A DNA stretch of 64,000 nt, taken from positions 437,550-501,549 of the forward strand of contig NZ_LMHM01000011.1 in assembly GCF_001427785.1 (NCBI RefSeq), given 5' to 3'. Position 1 is the stretch's first letter. Every line of letters starts with the position of its first letter. This DNA is from Lysobacter sp. Root690. Lineage in GTDB: Bacteria > Pseudomonadota > Gammaproteobacteria > Xanthomonadales > Xanthomonadaceae. Both the position numbers and the translations under genes were made by a program. The notes beneath the pieces are model-generated. The model saw nothing but the letters and a program-made list of their open reading frames with translations, did no database searches and had not been told where the DNA came from. Of the stretch, positions 909 through 42,397 are shown piece after piece.

Positions 909-1424
909 ATGTTTATGGAAGAACGTTATTTGGACGCCACCACCGCGGATCATGCGCATCGCGCCGCTCGCATCGACACGCGAGCAATCGGCGCGCGCGT
1001 CGCGCTGATCGCACTGTTCCTGGCGACCAGCGCCGCGCAAGCCAGCGGCCATCTGCCCGGCCTGCCGGTACCGCCGCGCGACTTCGCCGACTACGCCGCC
1101 TGCAAGGCGCACTTGCAGGAAGCGCATCGCGTCGACTTGGCCACCGCCACCGACAAACCCGAGGAAATCCGCCCGGGCGTGACCCGGCAGATGCTGGTGG
1201 AGACCGACGGCGTTGTCGAAACCGGCTCCAAGCAAGCGACCTATTCCTCGCGCGTCGGCGCGCAGATCCGCAGCCGCGACGAAGAACGCGGCTACATCCA
1301 GACCAATTACTCGTACAACGAGAAACAGTACGCGTGCAAAGGCCGGACGCTGACGGGGACGGATGGCGGCGGCGGGTATTACTCGCCGGGGTACGAGAAG
1401 ATCGAGACCAAGTCGTCGCCTTGA
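909..1424 (+). CDS. Putative exported hypothetical protein, 171 aa
   Basis: An uncharacterised protein with a hydrophobic segment at about residues 30-45 (VALIALFLATSAAQA) that ends like a signal-peptidase I site, so the mature part of about 125 residues is probably periplasmic. The first 28 residues form an unusually long N-region, so an ATG two codons downstream is also possible. The mature part has two cysteines (about 67 and 149) that could form a disulfide and a Gly/Tyr-rich C-terminus. No known domain was recognised. It stands alone and is followed by a hairpin with U-rich ends. Confidence 0.6.
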   Translation: MFMEERYLDATTADHAHRAARIDTRAIGARVALIALFLATSAAQASGHLPGLPVPPRDFADYAACKAHLQEAHRVDLATATDKPEEIRPGVTRQMLVETDGVVETGSKQATYSSRVGAQIRSRDEERGYIQTNYSYNEKQYACKGRTLTGTDGGGGYYSPGYEKIETKSSP

Positions 1425-1565
1425 GTCTGGTGAGGTCGGCGAATGGTCGCTGCACGCCCATCGCGGCGCGTCATGGAGCATCGCTGACGTCGCTGGGCGC
1501 GGTGTCGACTTGCTTGCCGTGCGAGTCCAGCGCCGCGGGGTGAGCGGAGTTGGTTGGTCGGCAAA

Positions 1566-1598
1566 CAAAAAGGCCTCGCGGATGCGAGGCCTTTGTTT
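1566..1598. terminator. Bidirectional rho-independent terminator
   Basis: Perfect stem AAGGCCTCGC / GCGAGGCCTT around a short loop, with A-rich 5' and T-rich 3' flanks. It can stop both the rightward gene ending at 1424 and leftward transcription from the tRNA side. Confidence 0.75.
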
Positions 1599-1660
1599 TC
1601 CGGGAAGCTTGCCGGCCGTTGGATCGTTGGCCGGGCGGTTGTTTTCTTCTCGGAGTTACG

Positions 1661-1736
1661 TGGTGCCGGAAATAGGAATCGAACCTACGACCTACGCATT
1701 ACGAATGCGCCGCTCTACCAACTGAGCTATTCCGGC
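1661..1736 (-). tRNA. tRNA-Thr (anticodon CGU)
   Basis: On the minus strand the sequence starts GCCGGAA and ends TTCCGGC-A-CCA, a perfect 7-bp acceptor stem with encoded CCA. The D arm contains AGTTGGTAGA, the T loop is TTCGATT, and the anticodon loop TTCGTAA places CGT at 34-36, reading ACG codons. Length 76 nt. Confidence 0.97.
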
Positions 1737-1829
1737 GAGGACGGCAATTCTAGGCGGGACGGGGCCGGGCGGTCAATTCGATCCGGTCCGGTGCCGGCTC
1801 TCAGCGCCCCGTTCTCAGCCCACCAGCTC

Positions 1830-2780
1830 TCAGCCGACAAGTTGCAGGCGCAGTTCCTTGGGCAGGGCGAAGACCATGTCCTCGCGCTCGCCCTCGAGTT
1901 CGCGCACGCCCTGGGCGCCCAGTTCGTGCAGGCGGTCGATCACCCCGCGTACCAGCACCTCGGGCGCGGAGGCGCCGGCGGTGACGCCGATGCGCTTGCG
2001 GCCGCGCACCCATTCGGGGTCGATTTCGACCGCGCCGTCGATCAGGTGGGCTTCCACGCCCTCGCGCTCGGACAGCTCGCGCAGGCGGTTGGAGTTGGAG
2101 CTGTTGATCGATCCCACCACCAGCACCAGGTCGCACTGCGCGGCCAGTTCGCGCACGGCGTCCTGGCGGTTCTGGGTGGCGTAGCAGATGTCGTCGTGGC
2201 GCGGGCCCTGGATCGCCGGGAACTTGGCGCGCATGGCTTCGATCACGCTGCGGGTGTCGTCGACCGACAAGGTCGTCTGGGTGGTGTAGGCCAGGTTGTC
2301 GGGTTGATCGACCTGCAAGGCGGCGACGTCGGCCGCGTCCTCGACCAGGTAGATCCGACCGGTACCGGCTTCGCGCCGCCATTGGCCCATGGTGCCTTCG
2401 ACTTCGGGGTGGCCTTCGTGGCCGATCAGGATCACGTCGCGGCCGGCGCGGCAGTGGCGCGAGACTTCCAGATGCACCTTGGTGACCAGCGGACAGGTCG
2501 CGTCGAACACCTTGAGCGCACGCCGTTCGGCCTCCTGACGCACCGCCTTGGACACGCCGTGGGCGCTGAAGATCACGGTGGCGCCGTCGGGGACTTCGTC
2601 GAGTTCCTCGACGAAGATCGCGCCGCGACGCTTGAGGTCGTCGACGACGAAGCGGTTATGCACGACTTCGTGGCGCACGTAGATCGGCGCGCCGAGGGTT
2701 TCGATGGCGCGCTTGACGATTTCGATCGCGCGATCGACGCCGGCGCAGAAGCCGCGGGGGTTGGCGAGCAGGACGTCCAT
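1830..2780 (-). CDS. ispH: 4-hydroxy-3-methylbut-2-enyl diphosphate reductase
   Basis: Last enzyme of the MEP isoprenoid pathway; reduces HMBPP to IPP and DMAPP with a [4Fe-4S] cluster in the cytoplasm. All three cluster cysteines are present: C12 (GFCAGV), C96 (DATCPL) and C199 (DDICYATQ). The active-site stretch [10 protein letters not shown] (121-130) carries the conserved His and catalytic Glu126. At 316 residues it matches the usual family length. The chosen ATG gives the standard [10 protein letters not shown] start; longer readings run back into the spacer after lspA. It is the last gene of the leftward ribF-ileS-lspA-ispH run, a common proteobacterial order. Confidence 0.97.
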
Positions 2781-2883
2781 GGGACGAGATTGTACTCCTG
2801 TGGCGGTGGCGGCTTGGTGTGACGGAAGGCGGCTGGGAACTGGCTGAATACCACCGCCCGGCCGGCGGAAAACCGCGGCGGGC

Positions 2884-3411
2884 TTAGGCCTTGCCCTGAC
2901 CCGGCTTGTGCTCGGCCGGCTTGCCGCTGAACAGCCCGTACACCGCGATCCCGATCGCCCCGGCCACGATCGCCGAGTCGGCGATGTTGAACGAGGGCCA
3001 GTGGTAGTCGCGCCAGTACCACTGGATGAAGTCGACCACGTGGCCATGGACCATGCGGTCGATGACGTTGCCGATCGCCCCGCCGATCACCAGCGCGTAC
3101 GGCAGCGCGGTCTTCCAGTCGCTGCGCTCGGTGCGCGCCAGCCAGGTCGCGAGCAGGCCGCTGATCCCGACCGCGAGCACCAGGAAGAAATATTTCTGCC
3201 AGCCGCCGGCATCGCTGAGGAAGCTGAAGGCCGCGCCGGTGTTGTAGCTGCGGTACCAGTTCCACACGCCGTCGATGACCGGCACCGCGGTGTACTCGGG
3301 CAGCGAGGCCAGCACCCAGGCCTTGCTGAGCTGGTCGAGCGCGATCACCACGATCGAGACGATCAGCCAGGGCAGCGCGTTGCGGCCGGGTTTGCTTGCG
3401 ATATCGGTCAT
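2884..3411 (-). CDS. lspA: Lipoprotein signal peptidase (signal peptidase II)
   Basis: Inner-membrane aspartyl protease that removes signal peptides from diacylglyceryl-modified prolipoproteins. 175 residues with four hydrophobic segments. The two catalytic aspartates are in their conserved contexts, D118 (GNVIDR) and D145 (FNIADSA), and the NTGAAFS motif is at about 57-63. The MTDIASK start is preferred over an upstream Met because it gives the normal short cytoplasmic N-terminus. It lies 90 bases after ileS and 103 before ispH in the same direction. Several lipoproteins in this window (for example at 15661, 21542, 33974, 54265) are likely substrates. Confidence 0.96.
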
Positions 3412-39030: not shown

Positions 39031-39488
39031 TCGATCGAGCGTCGCGAGCGTCCGCGCGGCGAGGTTAGAACCGCCGAGACTGAAACCCGTCCGGCGAAAC
39101 CCCGCCCATCCAGCCTCGCTCCGACGAGTCAGTTTGGCGGGCGACGTCACCCCGACCGCCGAAGCGAACGGTCCGACGAAGCGGCCGTTTTCGCGCACGT
39201 TGCAGTGCAGCAACGGCATATCGCCCGCCCCGGCCGGCGCCAACCTTCCAACGCGTCCTGCCGGTCGACGCCTTCGCCCCTCTCGCGCGACGCTTCGACG
39301 CGCACGCGTCCGAGCCTTGCAAATAAAGGCTGCAAACGGTTACAGCCCAATCCGGCTTAACCCGTTCTAAACAATTTCGGCGCATCGCCGCGGAAGCGCG
39401 AATCCGTTCGCCTCCTCCTAAACTCTTGGTACATGTCCGCAGCCCCACGCTGCAGTGTATTTTTGGGAACTCAGGAGGACAGCCCGGC
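39031..39488. other. Intergenic region upstream of the ECF sigma gene
   Basis: About 460 bases with no recognisable gene. It must hold the promoter of the sigma factor gene. An AAATAAAGGCTGCAAACGGT stretch near 39320 and an AGGAGG about 10 bases before the sigma ATG are the only notable signals. Confidence 0.4.
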
Positions 39489-40004
39489 ATGACGCTATCG
39501 ATGGCCAACGGTGATCTGGCAGCCGCCCGCTCGGGCGACACGGCCGCATTGGAACGGGTGCTGGTGCATTCGCGCCAGGACCTGCGCCGTTACGCCGAGT
39601 ACCACTGCGTCATCAACGACGTCGAGGACGCGGTCCAGGAAAGCCTGTTCACCGTATCGCGCAAGCTGCGCGACCTGCGCGTACTCGAATGCTTCGTGTC
39701 GTGGACCTTCCGCATCGTCAAGCGCGAATGCAACCGGCTCAAGCGCGGCCGGCGCATGCTCAGCGGCGACGCCATCAGCGACGACATCGCGCCGATGGTG
39801 AGCCACGAACCGGCAGAGTGGCGGCATGATGTCGCCGCCGCGCTGGAATCCCTGCCCGCGCATTACCGCCGCATCATCCTGCTGCGCGATCTGGAAGGGC
39901 TGACCATCGCCGAAATCGGCGAACAGCTCGGCCTGACCCGCGAAGCGGTGAAATCGCGTTTGCACAGAGCGCGGCTGCTCGCCCGCGAGTACCTGGCCTG
40001 TTGA
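39489..40004 (+). CDS. ECF-family RNA polymerase sigma factor
   Basis: Alternative sigma factor of 171 residues. Sigma-2 (about 20-90) includes EDAVQESLFTVSRKL and FVSWTFRIVKRECNRLKR. Sigma-4 (about 115-165) includes SLPAHYRRIILLRDLEGLTI and the helix-turn-helix IGEQLGLTREAVKSRLHR. No anti-sigma gene is adjacent, unlike the sigma/anti-sigma pairs that often control such loci. It sits 214 bases upstream of a cysteine-motif precursor gene in the same direction and probably activates it, by analogy with ECF-controlled bufferin operons. The start is behind AGGAGG; an ATG four codons later is possible. Confidence 0.9.
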   Translation: MTLSMANGDLAAARSGDTAALERVLVHSRQDLRRYAEYHCVINDVEDAVQESLFTVSRKLRDLRVLECFVSWTFRIVKRECNRLKRGRRMLSGDAISDDIAPMVSHEPAEWRHDVAAALESLPAHYRRIILLRDLEGLTIAEIGEQLGLTREAVKSRLHRARLLAREYLAC

Positions 40005-40147
40005 CGCGCGCGCTGCTTGAAGGCCGCGCTTGTTGACGACCACGCCCGTCGACCGCCGCCGGCCCGCTGCATCCATGTTCGTAACGAAGTCGTATCACCC
40101 AACAGCTCGACCGCATCCATCGCGATTCAAGCACAACCCGATCTGAC

Positions 40148-40171
40148 GGAACCCGGCACACTGGGCCGTTA
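40148..40171 (+). promoter_or_regulatory. Candidate ECF-type promoter for the bufferin precursor
   Basis: GGAAC (40148-40152) and CGTTA (40167-40171) resemble an ECF -35/-10 pair. The 14-base spacer is slightly short for this class, so this is tentative. It lies about 50 bases before the precursor ATG. Confidence 0.35.
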
Positions 40172-40218
40172 TTCCAACGGCGGACCATCCTCCGCCCTCA
40201 TCGCCACAGGAGTCATCC

Positions 40219-40665
40219 ATGTCCAAGCAAATCAAGAAGCCCCTCGCCCTCGCCCTCGGCGCCACCCTGATCGGTGGTCTGAGCCTGTCGGCTTCCGCGT
40301 TCGCGATGAGCGATCTGTCGCAGGGCTACCTGCTCGGCGCCCAGCAGGCTCCGCCGGCCGCCGAAAAGGCCGCCGACGCCAAGGCCGCCGCCGACACCGC
40401 CAAGACGGCCGAAGGCAGCTGTGGCGCCGACAAGAAGGCGAAGGAAGGCAGCTGCGGCGCAGACAAGAAGAAGGACGCCGAGGGCAAGTGCGGCGAAGGC
40501 AAGTGCGGCGTCGACAAGAAGAAGCACGCCGAAGGCAAGTGCGGTGAAGGCAAGTGCGGCGGCGACAAGAAGGACGCTGCCAAGCCGGTCAAGACCGGCG
40601 AAGCGGCGGCCAAGAAGGCCGGTGAAGGCAAGTGCGGCGAAGGCAAGTGCGGCGGTTCGGTCTGA
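40219..40665 (+). CDS. Bufferin-like RiPP precursor with eight E-G-(K/S)-C-G motifs
   Basis: A 148-residue precursor of a ribosomally made metal-binding peptide. The signal peptide (about 1-29, ending SASAFA) directs it to the periplasm, followed by a leader-like MSDLSQGYLLGAQQ. The rest is Lys/Ala-rich with all eight cysteines in pentapeptides: EGSCG at C68 and C79, and paired EGKCGEGKCG at C91/C96, C108/C113 and C139/C144. EGKCG repeats are the known substrates of DUF692/MNIO enzymes, which convert Cys to heterocycles that bind copper (established for bufferins and related systems). The enzyme and partner genes follow directly. The metal and exact modification here are inferred. Confidence 0.88.
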   Translation: MSKQIKKPLALALGATLIGGLSLSASAFAMSDLSQGYLLGAQQAPPAAEKAADAKAAADTAKTAEGSCGADKKAKEGSCGADKKKDAEGKCGEGKCGVDKKKHAEGKCGEGKCGGDKKDAAKPVKTGEAAAKKAGEGKCGEGKCGGSV

Positions 40666-40678
40666 TTCGTTTCGAATC
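40664..40678 (+). promoter_or_regulatory. Small hairpin at the precursor stop codon
   Basis: GATTCG-TTT-CGAATC overlaps the stop codon in the 40-base gap before the DUF692 gene. It lacks a T run; it could lower read-through so that precursor is made in excess over enzymes. Confidence 0.4.
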
Positions 40679-40705
40679 GGTCTGATATGCCACTGAGCTG
40701 ACACG

Positions 40706-41599
40706 ATGGCCGGCATGCGCAATTTGAAACCCGATGCCGTCGGTCTTGGCCTGCGGCGGGCTCTGCTGAGCCCGCTGCAGTCCGCGCCGACCGCCGAGAC
40801 CGAACGCGATTTCGATTTTCTCGAATGCGCGCCGGAAAACTGGATCGGCATCGGCGGCCGCTTCGGCGAAGCGCTGCGCGATCTGTCCTCGCGCCATCCG
40901 CTGGTCTGCCATGGCCTGTCGCTGTCGCTGGGCGGCACCGAGCCGCTCGACGAAACCTTCCTGGCCCGGGTGCGTCGCTTCCTCGACGAACACCGCGTGG
41001 CCTGCTATAGCGAACACCTGAGTTATTGCAGCGACGACGGCCATCTGTACGACCTGCTGCCGATTCCGTTCACGCAGGAAGCCGTGCATCACGTCGCCGC
41101 GCGCATCCGCCGCACCCAGGACATCGTCGGCCGCCGCATCGCGGTGGAAAACGCGTCCTACTACGCCGCTCCGCACCAGGAGATGAGCGAGGTCGAATTC
41201 ACCCGCGCGATCCTGGCCGAGGCCGATTGCGACCTGCTGCTCGACGTCAACAACGTCTACGTCAATTCGATCAACCATCGTTACGACGCACGCGAATTCA
41301 TCCAGGCGATGCCGCACGAGCGCATCGCCTATATCCATGTCGCCGGCCATTACGACGAGGCCGACGATCTCAAGGTCGACACCCACGGCGCGCCGGTGAA
41401 GAACGAAGTCTGGTCGCTGCTCGGCGATGCCTACCGCATGTTCGGCGCGCGCCCGACCCTGCTCGAACGCGATTTCAATTTCCCGCCCTACGAAGAACTG
41501 GTCGACGAACTGCGGATCGTGCGCCGGGTGCTGAGCGAATCGAGCCAAGCCGCGACCAGCGAGGCCGCGGCCAGCCCGGCCCGCCGCGTGCGCGCCTGA
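40706..41599 (+). CDS. DUF692 multinuclear non-heme iron oxygenase (MNIO), BufB-type
   Basis: 297-residue TIM-barrel enzyme expected to modify the cysteines of the adjacent precursor using iron and O2. Metal-ligand-type residues are in the conserved family contexts: H69 ([10 protein letters not shown]), E103/H104 (YSEHLSY), E148 (AVENAS), D180 and N183 ([11 protein letters not shown]), H211/H215 (IHVAGHYD), D226/H227 and E254 (LLERDFNFP). The N-terminal [13 protein letters not shown] and [11 protein letters not shown] are family hallmarks. The start has only a weak ribosome-binding site; a Met three codons later is possible. Four bases separate it from the DUF2063 gene. Confidence 0.93.
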
Positions 41600-41602
41600 G
41601 CC

Positions 41603-42397
41603 ATGAACGAGGCCCCCTCGCGCCTGCGCGCGCAGCAGTTCGAACTGACCCGGCATCTGCGCGATCCGCAGGCCAGCCCCGCGCCGCAAGGCATCGAGGA
41701 CCGGCGCCTGGGGATCTATCGCGAGCTGCTGTTCAACAACATCCTGGGTTTGCTGTCGGGCAATTTCCCGGTCATCAGCCAACTGCTGGGCGAGGAACGC
41801 TGGCAACGGCTCGTTCGCGATTTCTACCGCGACTACCGCTGCCGCACCCCGCTATTCGCCGAGATCGCGCGCGAGTTCCTGCGCTACCTGGACGATCTCG
41901 ACAGCGACGCTCTCGACAGCGACGTCATCCCGCCGTTCCTGCCCGAGCTTGCGCACTACGAGTGGGTCGAACTGGCGCTGCAACTCAGCGACGCCGCCGC
42001 GCCGCAAGACGAAGTCGCAATCAGCGACGACGAACTGCTGGACCATCACCCGCAGCTGTCGCCGCTGGCCTGGCCGCTGGCCTATGCCTGGCCGGTGCAT
42101 CGGCTCGGCCCCGACTACCAACCCGAACAGCCGCCGGCGACACCGACCCTGGTCCTGCTGCGCCGCGAAGCCGATGGCGACGTGCGTTTTTCCGAACTCA
42201 GCCCACTGGCCTATCGCCTGGTCGAACGCATCGGCGAATCGCCGGAACTGAGCGCGCGCGAACAACTGCACGCCCTGGCCCAGGAAGCCGGCAGCGACGA
42301 CAGCTCCGCCTTCCTCGCGCTCGGCGATGGTCTGTTGCGGCAGATGCGCGCGAGCGGAGTGATCGTCTTTGCGCGCGCCGCGAATCCCGAAGCCTGA
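41603..42397 (+). CDS. DUF2063 MNIO partner protein, BufC-type
   Basis: 264-residue cytoplasmic protein of the DUF2063 (HvfC/BufC) family, which partners DUF692 enzymes and presents the precursor peptide. The N-terminal half has the family-like LRAQQFELTRHLRDPQ and LGIYRELLFNNILGLLSGNF (about 28-47), followed by LLGEERWQRLVRDFYRDYRC and LFAEIAREFLRYL. The C-terminal half (about 130-264) is a winged-helix-like RiPP-recognition region in family members. It starts 3 bases after the DUF692 stop. No dedicated exporter, DoxX-type membrane protein or receptor gene follows. Confidence 0.9.
   Translation: MNEAPSRLRAQQFELTRHLRDPQASPAPQGIEDRRLGIYRELLFNNILGLLSGNFPVISQLLGEERWQRLVRDFYRDYRCRTPLFAEIAREFLRYLDDLDSDALDSDVIPPFLPELAHYEWVELALQLSDAAAPQDEVAISDDELLDHHPQLSPLAWPLAYAWPVHRLGPDYQPEQPPATPTLVLLRREADGDVRFSELSPLAYRLVERIGESPELSAREQLHALAQEAGSDDSSAFLALGDGLLRQMRASGVIVFARAANPEA

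Follow-up and report, generated by a model that had tools for sequence, protein, structure and literature searches.

A probable HvfA-type metallophore operon with a linked extracytoplasmic function (ECF) sigma factor in Lysobacter sp. Root690

The HvfA/HvfB/HvfC systems (also oxazolin, Buf_EGKCG or captophorin) are a known, very common and widespread class of ribosomally synthesized and post-translationally modified peptides (RiPPs), and the 5-thiooxazole product is described as established in fontiphorin, oxazolin and gonophorin (PMC12668002). Haemophilus influenzae HvfA is reported to carry three AEGKCGEGKCG motifs (PMC13419390), and most EGKCG clusters hold genes for the precursor, a multinuclear non-heme iron-dependent oxidative enzyme (MNIO, DUF692), a DUF2063 protein and DoxX in various combinations (PMC12452194). 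ECF control of such operons is already known in kind: in Neisseria the ECF gene NGO1944 is described as grouped with NGO1945-1948, its EGKCG operon, and Ecf as tied to msrAB (PMC2954202), and in H. influenzae RpoE2 is reported to control an hvf-like DoxX/DUF2063 operon and to respond to HOCl and H2O2 (PMC7907618). Here we analyze a locus of Lysobacter sp. Root690, in a 64,000-nucleotide stretch of contig NZ_LMHM01000011.1 (the window), in which four plus-strand genes at 39489-42397 encode, in this order, an ECF sigma factor, a precursor, a DUF692/MNIO enzyme and a DUF2063 partner. We read the locus as very probably a stress-induced HvfA-type (captophorin) metallophore operon with an autoregulated ECF sigma factor and thiooxazole-Cu(I) chemistry. 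The modest news is a probably self-driven sigma switch with a conserved promoter-like element, together with a placement rule for Ser-variant motifs; the known picture of thiooxazole chemistry is unchanged.

Class membership of the locus

Judged by its encoded proteins, the locus is an HvfA/HvfB/HvfC system, since precursor, MNIO and partner score above the curated cut-offs of its family models. The precursor scored 75.6 bits against the NCBIfam model NF050137 'KCGExKCG_twice' (cut-off 19.5; E=1.7e-21, far beyond chance), the MNIO 434 bits against HvfB NF003818 (cut-off 360) and 344 bits against PF05114, and the partner 297 bits against HvfC NF050145 (cut-off 142), with further matches to Pfam DUF2063 (PF09836) and NGO1945_C (PF22106). 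Of the features that mark the HvfA/oxazolin group, the locus has a precursor with repeated paired EGKCG motifs, an HvfB-type MNIO and, downstream, a DUF2063 partner with a RiPP recognition element (RRE). Among solved structures, the MNIO matched 3BWW (E=1.1e-70), MbnB being a more distant relative, and the partner matched PDB 3DEE (E=5e-10). An earlier note made from the letters of the window alone had proposed these four genes and counted two EGSCG motifs followed by three EGKCGEGKCG blocks; the gene coordinates were borne out to the base, and the motif count was confirmed on the precursor sequence (Table 1).

Table 1. Features of the locus, in window positions, and genes of the comparison locus L172, in its own coordinates
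Feature	Position	Strand	Basis
ECF-type promoter-like element GAATCC-N17-CTCTT, predicted autoregulated operon promoter	39400..39427	+	conservation
Possible hairpin in the 5' untranslated region of the sigma transcript, directly after the -10-like block	39430..39459	+	covariation vs shuffles
ECF sigma factor, 171 aa, start ATG 39489, stop ending 40004; no neighbouring anti-sigma gene seen	39489..40004	+	Pfam Sigma70_r4_2, E=4.3e-17
RiPP precursor, HvfA/Buf_EGKCG type, predicted Sec-exported, 148 aa, 8 Cys	40219..40665	+	NF050137 match
Two leader-proximal lone EGSCG motifs (Cys68, Cys79)	40411..40458	+	sequence
Three EGKCGEGKCG pairs (Cys91/96, 108/113, 139/144)	40480..40653	+	sequence
MNIO (DUF692) peptide maturase, HvfB family	40706..41599	+	NF003818, PF05114, 3BWW
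DUF2063/RRE partner, HvfC family	41603..42397	+	PF09836, PF22106, NF050145, PDB 3DEE
L172 precursor	1148-1420		
L172 MNIO	1501-2313		
L172 DUF2063	2327-3067		

The N-terminus of the precursor, as judged by eye, has a basic start, a hydrophobic segment and a Sec cleavage site of the SAFA type and lacks a lipobox. Its eight cysteines, at positions 68, 79, 91, 96, 108, 113, 139 and 144, are spaced by 11, 12, 5, 12, 5, 26 and 5 residues. A Pfam search of the precursor gave no match, and neither Pfam nor inspection by eye revealed EF-hand segments in it, which sets it apart from the chimeric type that joins Buf_EGKCG to EF-hands.

For comparison we assembled a main set of 142 loci with a full MNIO match, the window included, to which one search contributed the best 80 of its 154 loci; the set is mostly made up of the window's own family, with a few loci labelled Pseudomonas, Pantoea, Rheinheimera or Bacillus. 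Among the relatives with letters at the respective positions, R17/R18 (Arg-Arg) of the MNIO are retained in 141 of 141, and D225/H227 (the DTH motif) and D256/F257 in 142 of 142. The functional residues published for HvfB (D242/H244; PMC13419390) and FonB (R15, R16, D249 and F250; PMC12668002) thus appear to be kept here, with residues matched by motif context and not by aligning the HvfB and FonB sequences themselves.

The sigma factor and its promoter-like element

A sigma gene on the same strand lies directly upstream of the precursor at 37 of 117 unique loci, 4 of 121 loci having been set aside for short upstream DNA. In the window's sigma factor the Sigma70_r2 match fell slightly under its cut-off (21.1 vs 24). 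The gap between sigma and precursor genes measures 45-52 nt in five relatives, which leaves no space for an anti-sigma gene between them; none was seen beside the sigma gene, the rest of the genome not having been searched for one.

A G(A/C)AYC-N17-CTCTT-like element precedes the sigma gene at 36 of the 37 sigma-linked loci, with the exact 17-nt spacing from hexamer to CTCTT in 34 of the 36, a count that has to be read with the pattern having been written after viewing, and counted in, the same sequences. The better evidence is therefore that the spacing stays constant even among sigma proteins with identities as low as 50%. In 200 mononucleotide shuffles the element turned up on average at 2.15 of the 37 loci and never at more than 6, and before the precursor gene it was found at 2 of 37, the level of the shuffles. 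This distribution, before the sigma gene and hardly ever before the precursor, suggests that sigma, precursor, MNIO and partner form one self-activated operon. The strict form GCGAAYCC-N14-18-CTCTTG has a single site in the whole genome, at this promoter; a looser pattern has two, and the additional one, beside a rhomboid-like gene (by eye), was taken as chance.

Directly behind the element lies a possible leader hairpin that we regard as suggestive only. Over 15 distinct Lysobacter-group sequences 83.6% of cells are paired and 4 of 10 pairs carry changes on both sides; against 500 shuffles the covariation score was reached in none and the number of double-change pairs in 23. RNAalifold returned no consensus structure for the sigma leader, the divergent L010, L136, L011 and L017 being left out.

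Residues C40 and C81 are invariant in all 37 linked sigma factors and could serve as a direct sensor; this invariance is weak evidence, since 53 of the 171 columns are invariant and Cys close to both positions also occur in the paralogue L147. An AlphaFold model of the window's sigma factor is mediocre (predicted local distance difference test, 71.9; predicted template modelling score, 0.41) and does not allow C40 and C81 to be placed relative to each other; in a fold search it matched ECF sigma factors but fitted them well in region 4 alone. CorE-type copper-sensing ECF factors are described as having a C-terminal Cys-rich domain (PMC8999054). The sigma factor studied here lacks such a domain, as it stops right after region 4, with the tail REYLAC, and a Cys at the last position occurs in 3 of the 37 linked sigma factors.

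Paired and lone motifs among relatives

A precursor was found at 141 of the 142 main-set loci (the exception being L039), and for motif counts 138 of the 142 could be trimmed to the mature part (L071, L079 and L082 having no trimming anchor), giving 117 unique precursors. We call a motif paired when another Cys lies five residues away and lone when none does. The earlier note had taken the paired arrangement and the two serine variants to be unusual, and neither view held. The pair is the defining feature of the family (NF050137), with three pairs in H. influenzae HvfA and three cassettes in MmrA of Microbulbifer, and the paired domain occurs in 116 of 198 genomes searched in the window's family. 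The search of DUF692-adjacent precursors for paired spacing that the earlier note had proposed found pairs to be widespread, with 568 paired motifs in the 117 precursors. Ser before Cys is found in 67 of 166 lone motifs of these relatives.

The residue before Cys differs sharply by placement: Lys stands there in 559 of 568 paired motifs vs 76 of 166 lone ones, and Ser in none of the paired motifs. The Lys contrast persists in 32 cluster representatives (172/180 paired vs 15/43 lone). Of 164 lone motifs, whether of Lys or another type, 128 lie ahead of the first pair, and a pair stands at the precursor end in 97 of 117. An EGxxG frame without Cys occurred once in the 117 precursors, which indicates that the Cys is retained. 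At least one motif has Ser, Thr, Asn, Gly or Gln in front of its Cys at 27 of 37 sigma-linked vs 23 of 80 other loci, a difference confounded by kinship.

In a wider test, a class-level search yielded 29 new loci, of which 26 had a precursor and 24 of these came from other families. The association there is weak, with Lys before Cys in 125 of 142 paired vs 29 of 41 lone motifs (Fisher p=0.014), in a sample that includes L150 and L151 of the window's own family and the fragment L160, and with lone counts that take in a few Cys outside EGxCG. A complete locus of another family of the same class, L172, has EGSCG in all six of its motifs, arranged in two triplets. With lone Ser motifs common in the main set and L172 built from Ser motifs only, EGSCG appears to be a naturally used substrate variant, and we reject as a general rule that EGSCG is unusual or a non-substrate. 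The strict separation of Lys in pairs from Ser in singles is specific to the group to which the window belongs.

The number of lone motifs varies among close species. In L003 the pairs are preceded by a tandem array of four nearly identical EGSCGADKK units, vs two lone motifs in the window, and L093 has five motifs of the Ser/Thr/Asn/Gly/Gln type; from these sequences, the lone-motif array grows and contracts between close species. Separately, one contig labelled Bacillus subtilis SK7B5 (L047) encodes a precursor closely resembling those of Stenotrophomonas (cf. L055) and probably reflects a mislabelled or contaminated assembly. In the open-access literature, a search for EGSCG gave no RiPP paper by title among the matches listed, and EGSCG combined with 'metallophore' gave no match.

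Proposed mechanism, alternatives and known systems

In the mechanism that we propose, the ECF sigma factor would drive its own promoter (39400-39427), as its conservation suggests, and transcribe sigma, precursor, MNIO and partner as one unit. In the cytoplasm, the RRE of the partner and the signal-peptide leader would guide the precursor to the MNIO, and this iron-dependent enzyme, by analogy with published relatives, would turn the Cys of the EGxCG motifs into 5-thiooxazoles, almost surely at the six Lys-paired Cys and probably at the two Ser-type lone Cys. The signal sequence recognized by eye points to Sec export of the modified protein to the periplasm, where the thiooxazole thiolates would bind Cu(I). 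Up to four Cu were reported on the seven-site fontiphorin (PMC12668002), so that about four on the eight sites here, or about one copper per two rings, is a reasonable guess; the variable leader-proximal lone motifs may provide extra capacity. The operon would be induced by metal or by oxidative envelope stress, and copper need not be the signal. Copper-binding chemistry of the precursor is likely: the Microbulbifer pair cassette is reported to bind Cu(I) (PMC12538549), and the earlier note's view of EGKCG precursors with MNIO and DUF2063 as a kind that binds copper agrees with the published relatives.

Several points weigh against this proposal, besides the after-the-fact promoter pattern. 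Against the full-length HvfA equivalog model NF050188 the precursor scored 41.7 bits, under the cut-off of 95, so that it shares the motif domain and is not the HvfA equivalog itself. The sigma gene is missing at 80 of 117 loci and is therefore not required by the EGKCG system, and in the class-level sample, where the search covered some 1.5 kb on the upstream side of the MNIO, a linked sigma gene was found at 0 of 26. The Microbulbifer mmr proteins are reported as undetected with or without added copper and as not copper-induced, and the protection from copper that mmr gave in E. coli was slight, its authors being hesitant on a protective role (PMC12538549). In fontiphorin maturation, FonBC is described as leaving a shortened one-repeat substrate unmodified and modifying a two-repeat short substrate (PMC12668002), from which it follows that lone motifs could stay unmodified.

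The mmr result, together with the hypochlorite- and peroxide-responsive RpoE2 of H. influenzae and the link of Neisseria Ecf to msrAB, would fit the alternative that the operon responds to envelope stress of an oxidative (hypochlorite-like) kind and not to copper, its modified thiols scavenging oxidants or another soft metal. We consider this unlikely, if still to be reckoned with, because bulbicupramide, the one relative for which we found such a test, is reported to bind Cu(I), with no appreciable binding of Fe, Ni, Zn or Mn (PMC12538549), and because the strict promoter pattern is single in the genome, so that no msr-type regulon is seen.

Somewhat less probable, in our judgement, is that modification and copper binding are confined to the pairs and that the lone EGSCG Cys remain thiols for redox sensing, disulfide cross-linking or spacing near the leader. 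The restriction of Ser to lone motifs in the main set would fit it, as would the FonBC preference among short substrates, but MmrBC is reported to modify the remaining Cys of a cassette when its partner Cys is changed to Ala (PMC12538549), FonBC to tolerate Ala, Arg or Thr at the Lys position (PMC12668002), L172 carries EGSCG motifs only, and the Cys is almost never lost from the motif. A further reading, which we hold as rather doubtful, is a two-tier thiooxazole buffer in which a conserved Lys-paired core is joined by fast-varying, leader-proximal lone Ser-type sites of different copper affinity or redox behaviour, with an orphan ECF factor, lacking a neighbouring anti-sigma gene, that activates its own operon only and may sense metal or oxidants via C40 and C81.

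That the locus is a strict bufferin (Buf1/DUF2282 or Buf2) can be dismissed almost entirely: MNIO, DUF2063 and a signal peptide are all present and sigma genes are reported in Buf1, though in no Buf2, clusters (PMC12452194), but the MNIO scored 269 bits against BufB NF050167, under its cut-off of 310 and over that of HvfB, and the precursor passes the KCGExKCG cut-off and lacks DUF2282. A search for a DUF2282 protein gave no match in the whole genome, a control match being obtained in Caulobacter vibrioides. At the level of family models the Buf1 assignment is thus refuted, the tested models covering Buf1 and none being specific to Buf2 precursors. What stands of the bufferin-type metallophore proposed from the letters alone is an apparently Sec-exported EGKCG precursor modified by MNIO/DUF2063; its branch is instead HvfA/oxazolin (Buf_EGKCG).

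The genomic setting of the HvfA-type operon consists of phoU upstream, preceded by genes resembling pst transporter genes (by eye), and an RNase T gene downstream. Lysobacter genomes are the closest named ones among the matches listed, with an MNIO identity of 90% in Lysobacter sp. ISL-50 and 88% in L. antibioticus 13-6. The same genome holds a second EGKCG locus on contig C12 (390861-392053; L002/L108), comprising a DoxX-like gene, a precursor with three pairs and EF-hand-like segments (by eye), an MNIO, a DUF2063 protein and a membrane protein resembling the ferric-reductase/MsrQ type (by eye); the MNIO, the motif domain and the DUF2063 match are the parts supported by searches, and a sigma match is absent within the 3.8 kb fetched.

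These results add to the HvfA/captophorin class a Lysobacter operon that carries a linked sigma factor of its own. Its compactness suits it to studies of the inducer of EGKCG peptides, a question raised by the Microbulbifer relative, which was not copper-induced. The rule of Lys in pairs and Ser in singles offers a sharp way to ask whether it is as pairs that thiooxazoles bind metal.

Among known systems, the Buf1 locus of Caulobacter itself is presumably sigF-nrsF. Bufferin 1 shares with the Lysobacter operon MNIO/DUF2063 with a Sec-exported precursor, in a copper-stress locus whose clusters can hold sigma genes, and differs in a DUF2282 precursor with four conserved Cys and in clusters that can hold NrsF anti-sigma genes (PMC12452194). 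Bulbicupramide (mmrABC) of Microbulbifer shares MNIO, DUF2063 and, in MmrA, three two-Cys EGKCG cassettes; the term 'sigma factor' is absent from the main text of its description, which reports mmr as not copper-induced (PMC12538549). Fontiphorin (fonABC) of Fontimonas thermophila shares the precursor with EGKCG repeat blocks, the MNIO, the DUF2063 partner and the Arg-Arg and Asp-Phe residues, whereas its seven sites are arranged in blocks of two, three and two, and it is described as precursor, MNIO and partner only, with no sigma gene (PMC12668002). The gonophorin/ngo cluster of Neisseria gonorrhoeae is described as holding, in linkage as here, genes for an ECF sigma factor (NGO1944), an MNIO, a DUF2063 protein and an EGKCG precursor (PMC2954202), and has a DoxX gene (NGO1948), whereas no DoxX gene adjoins the Lysobacter sp. 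Root690 locus. HvfA/HvfB/HvfC (oxazolin) of H. influenzae shares, as described, three pairs in a Sec-exported precursor, an HvfB-type MNIO and an HvfC-type DUF2063 partner; compared with it, the Lysobacter copy, besides having no adjoining DoxX gene, carries two extra lone EGSCG motifs and has its sigma gene adjacent, whereas that of H. influenzae lies elsewhere in the genome.

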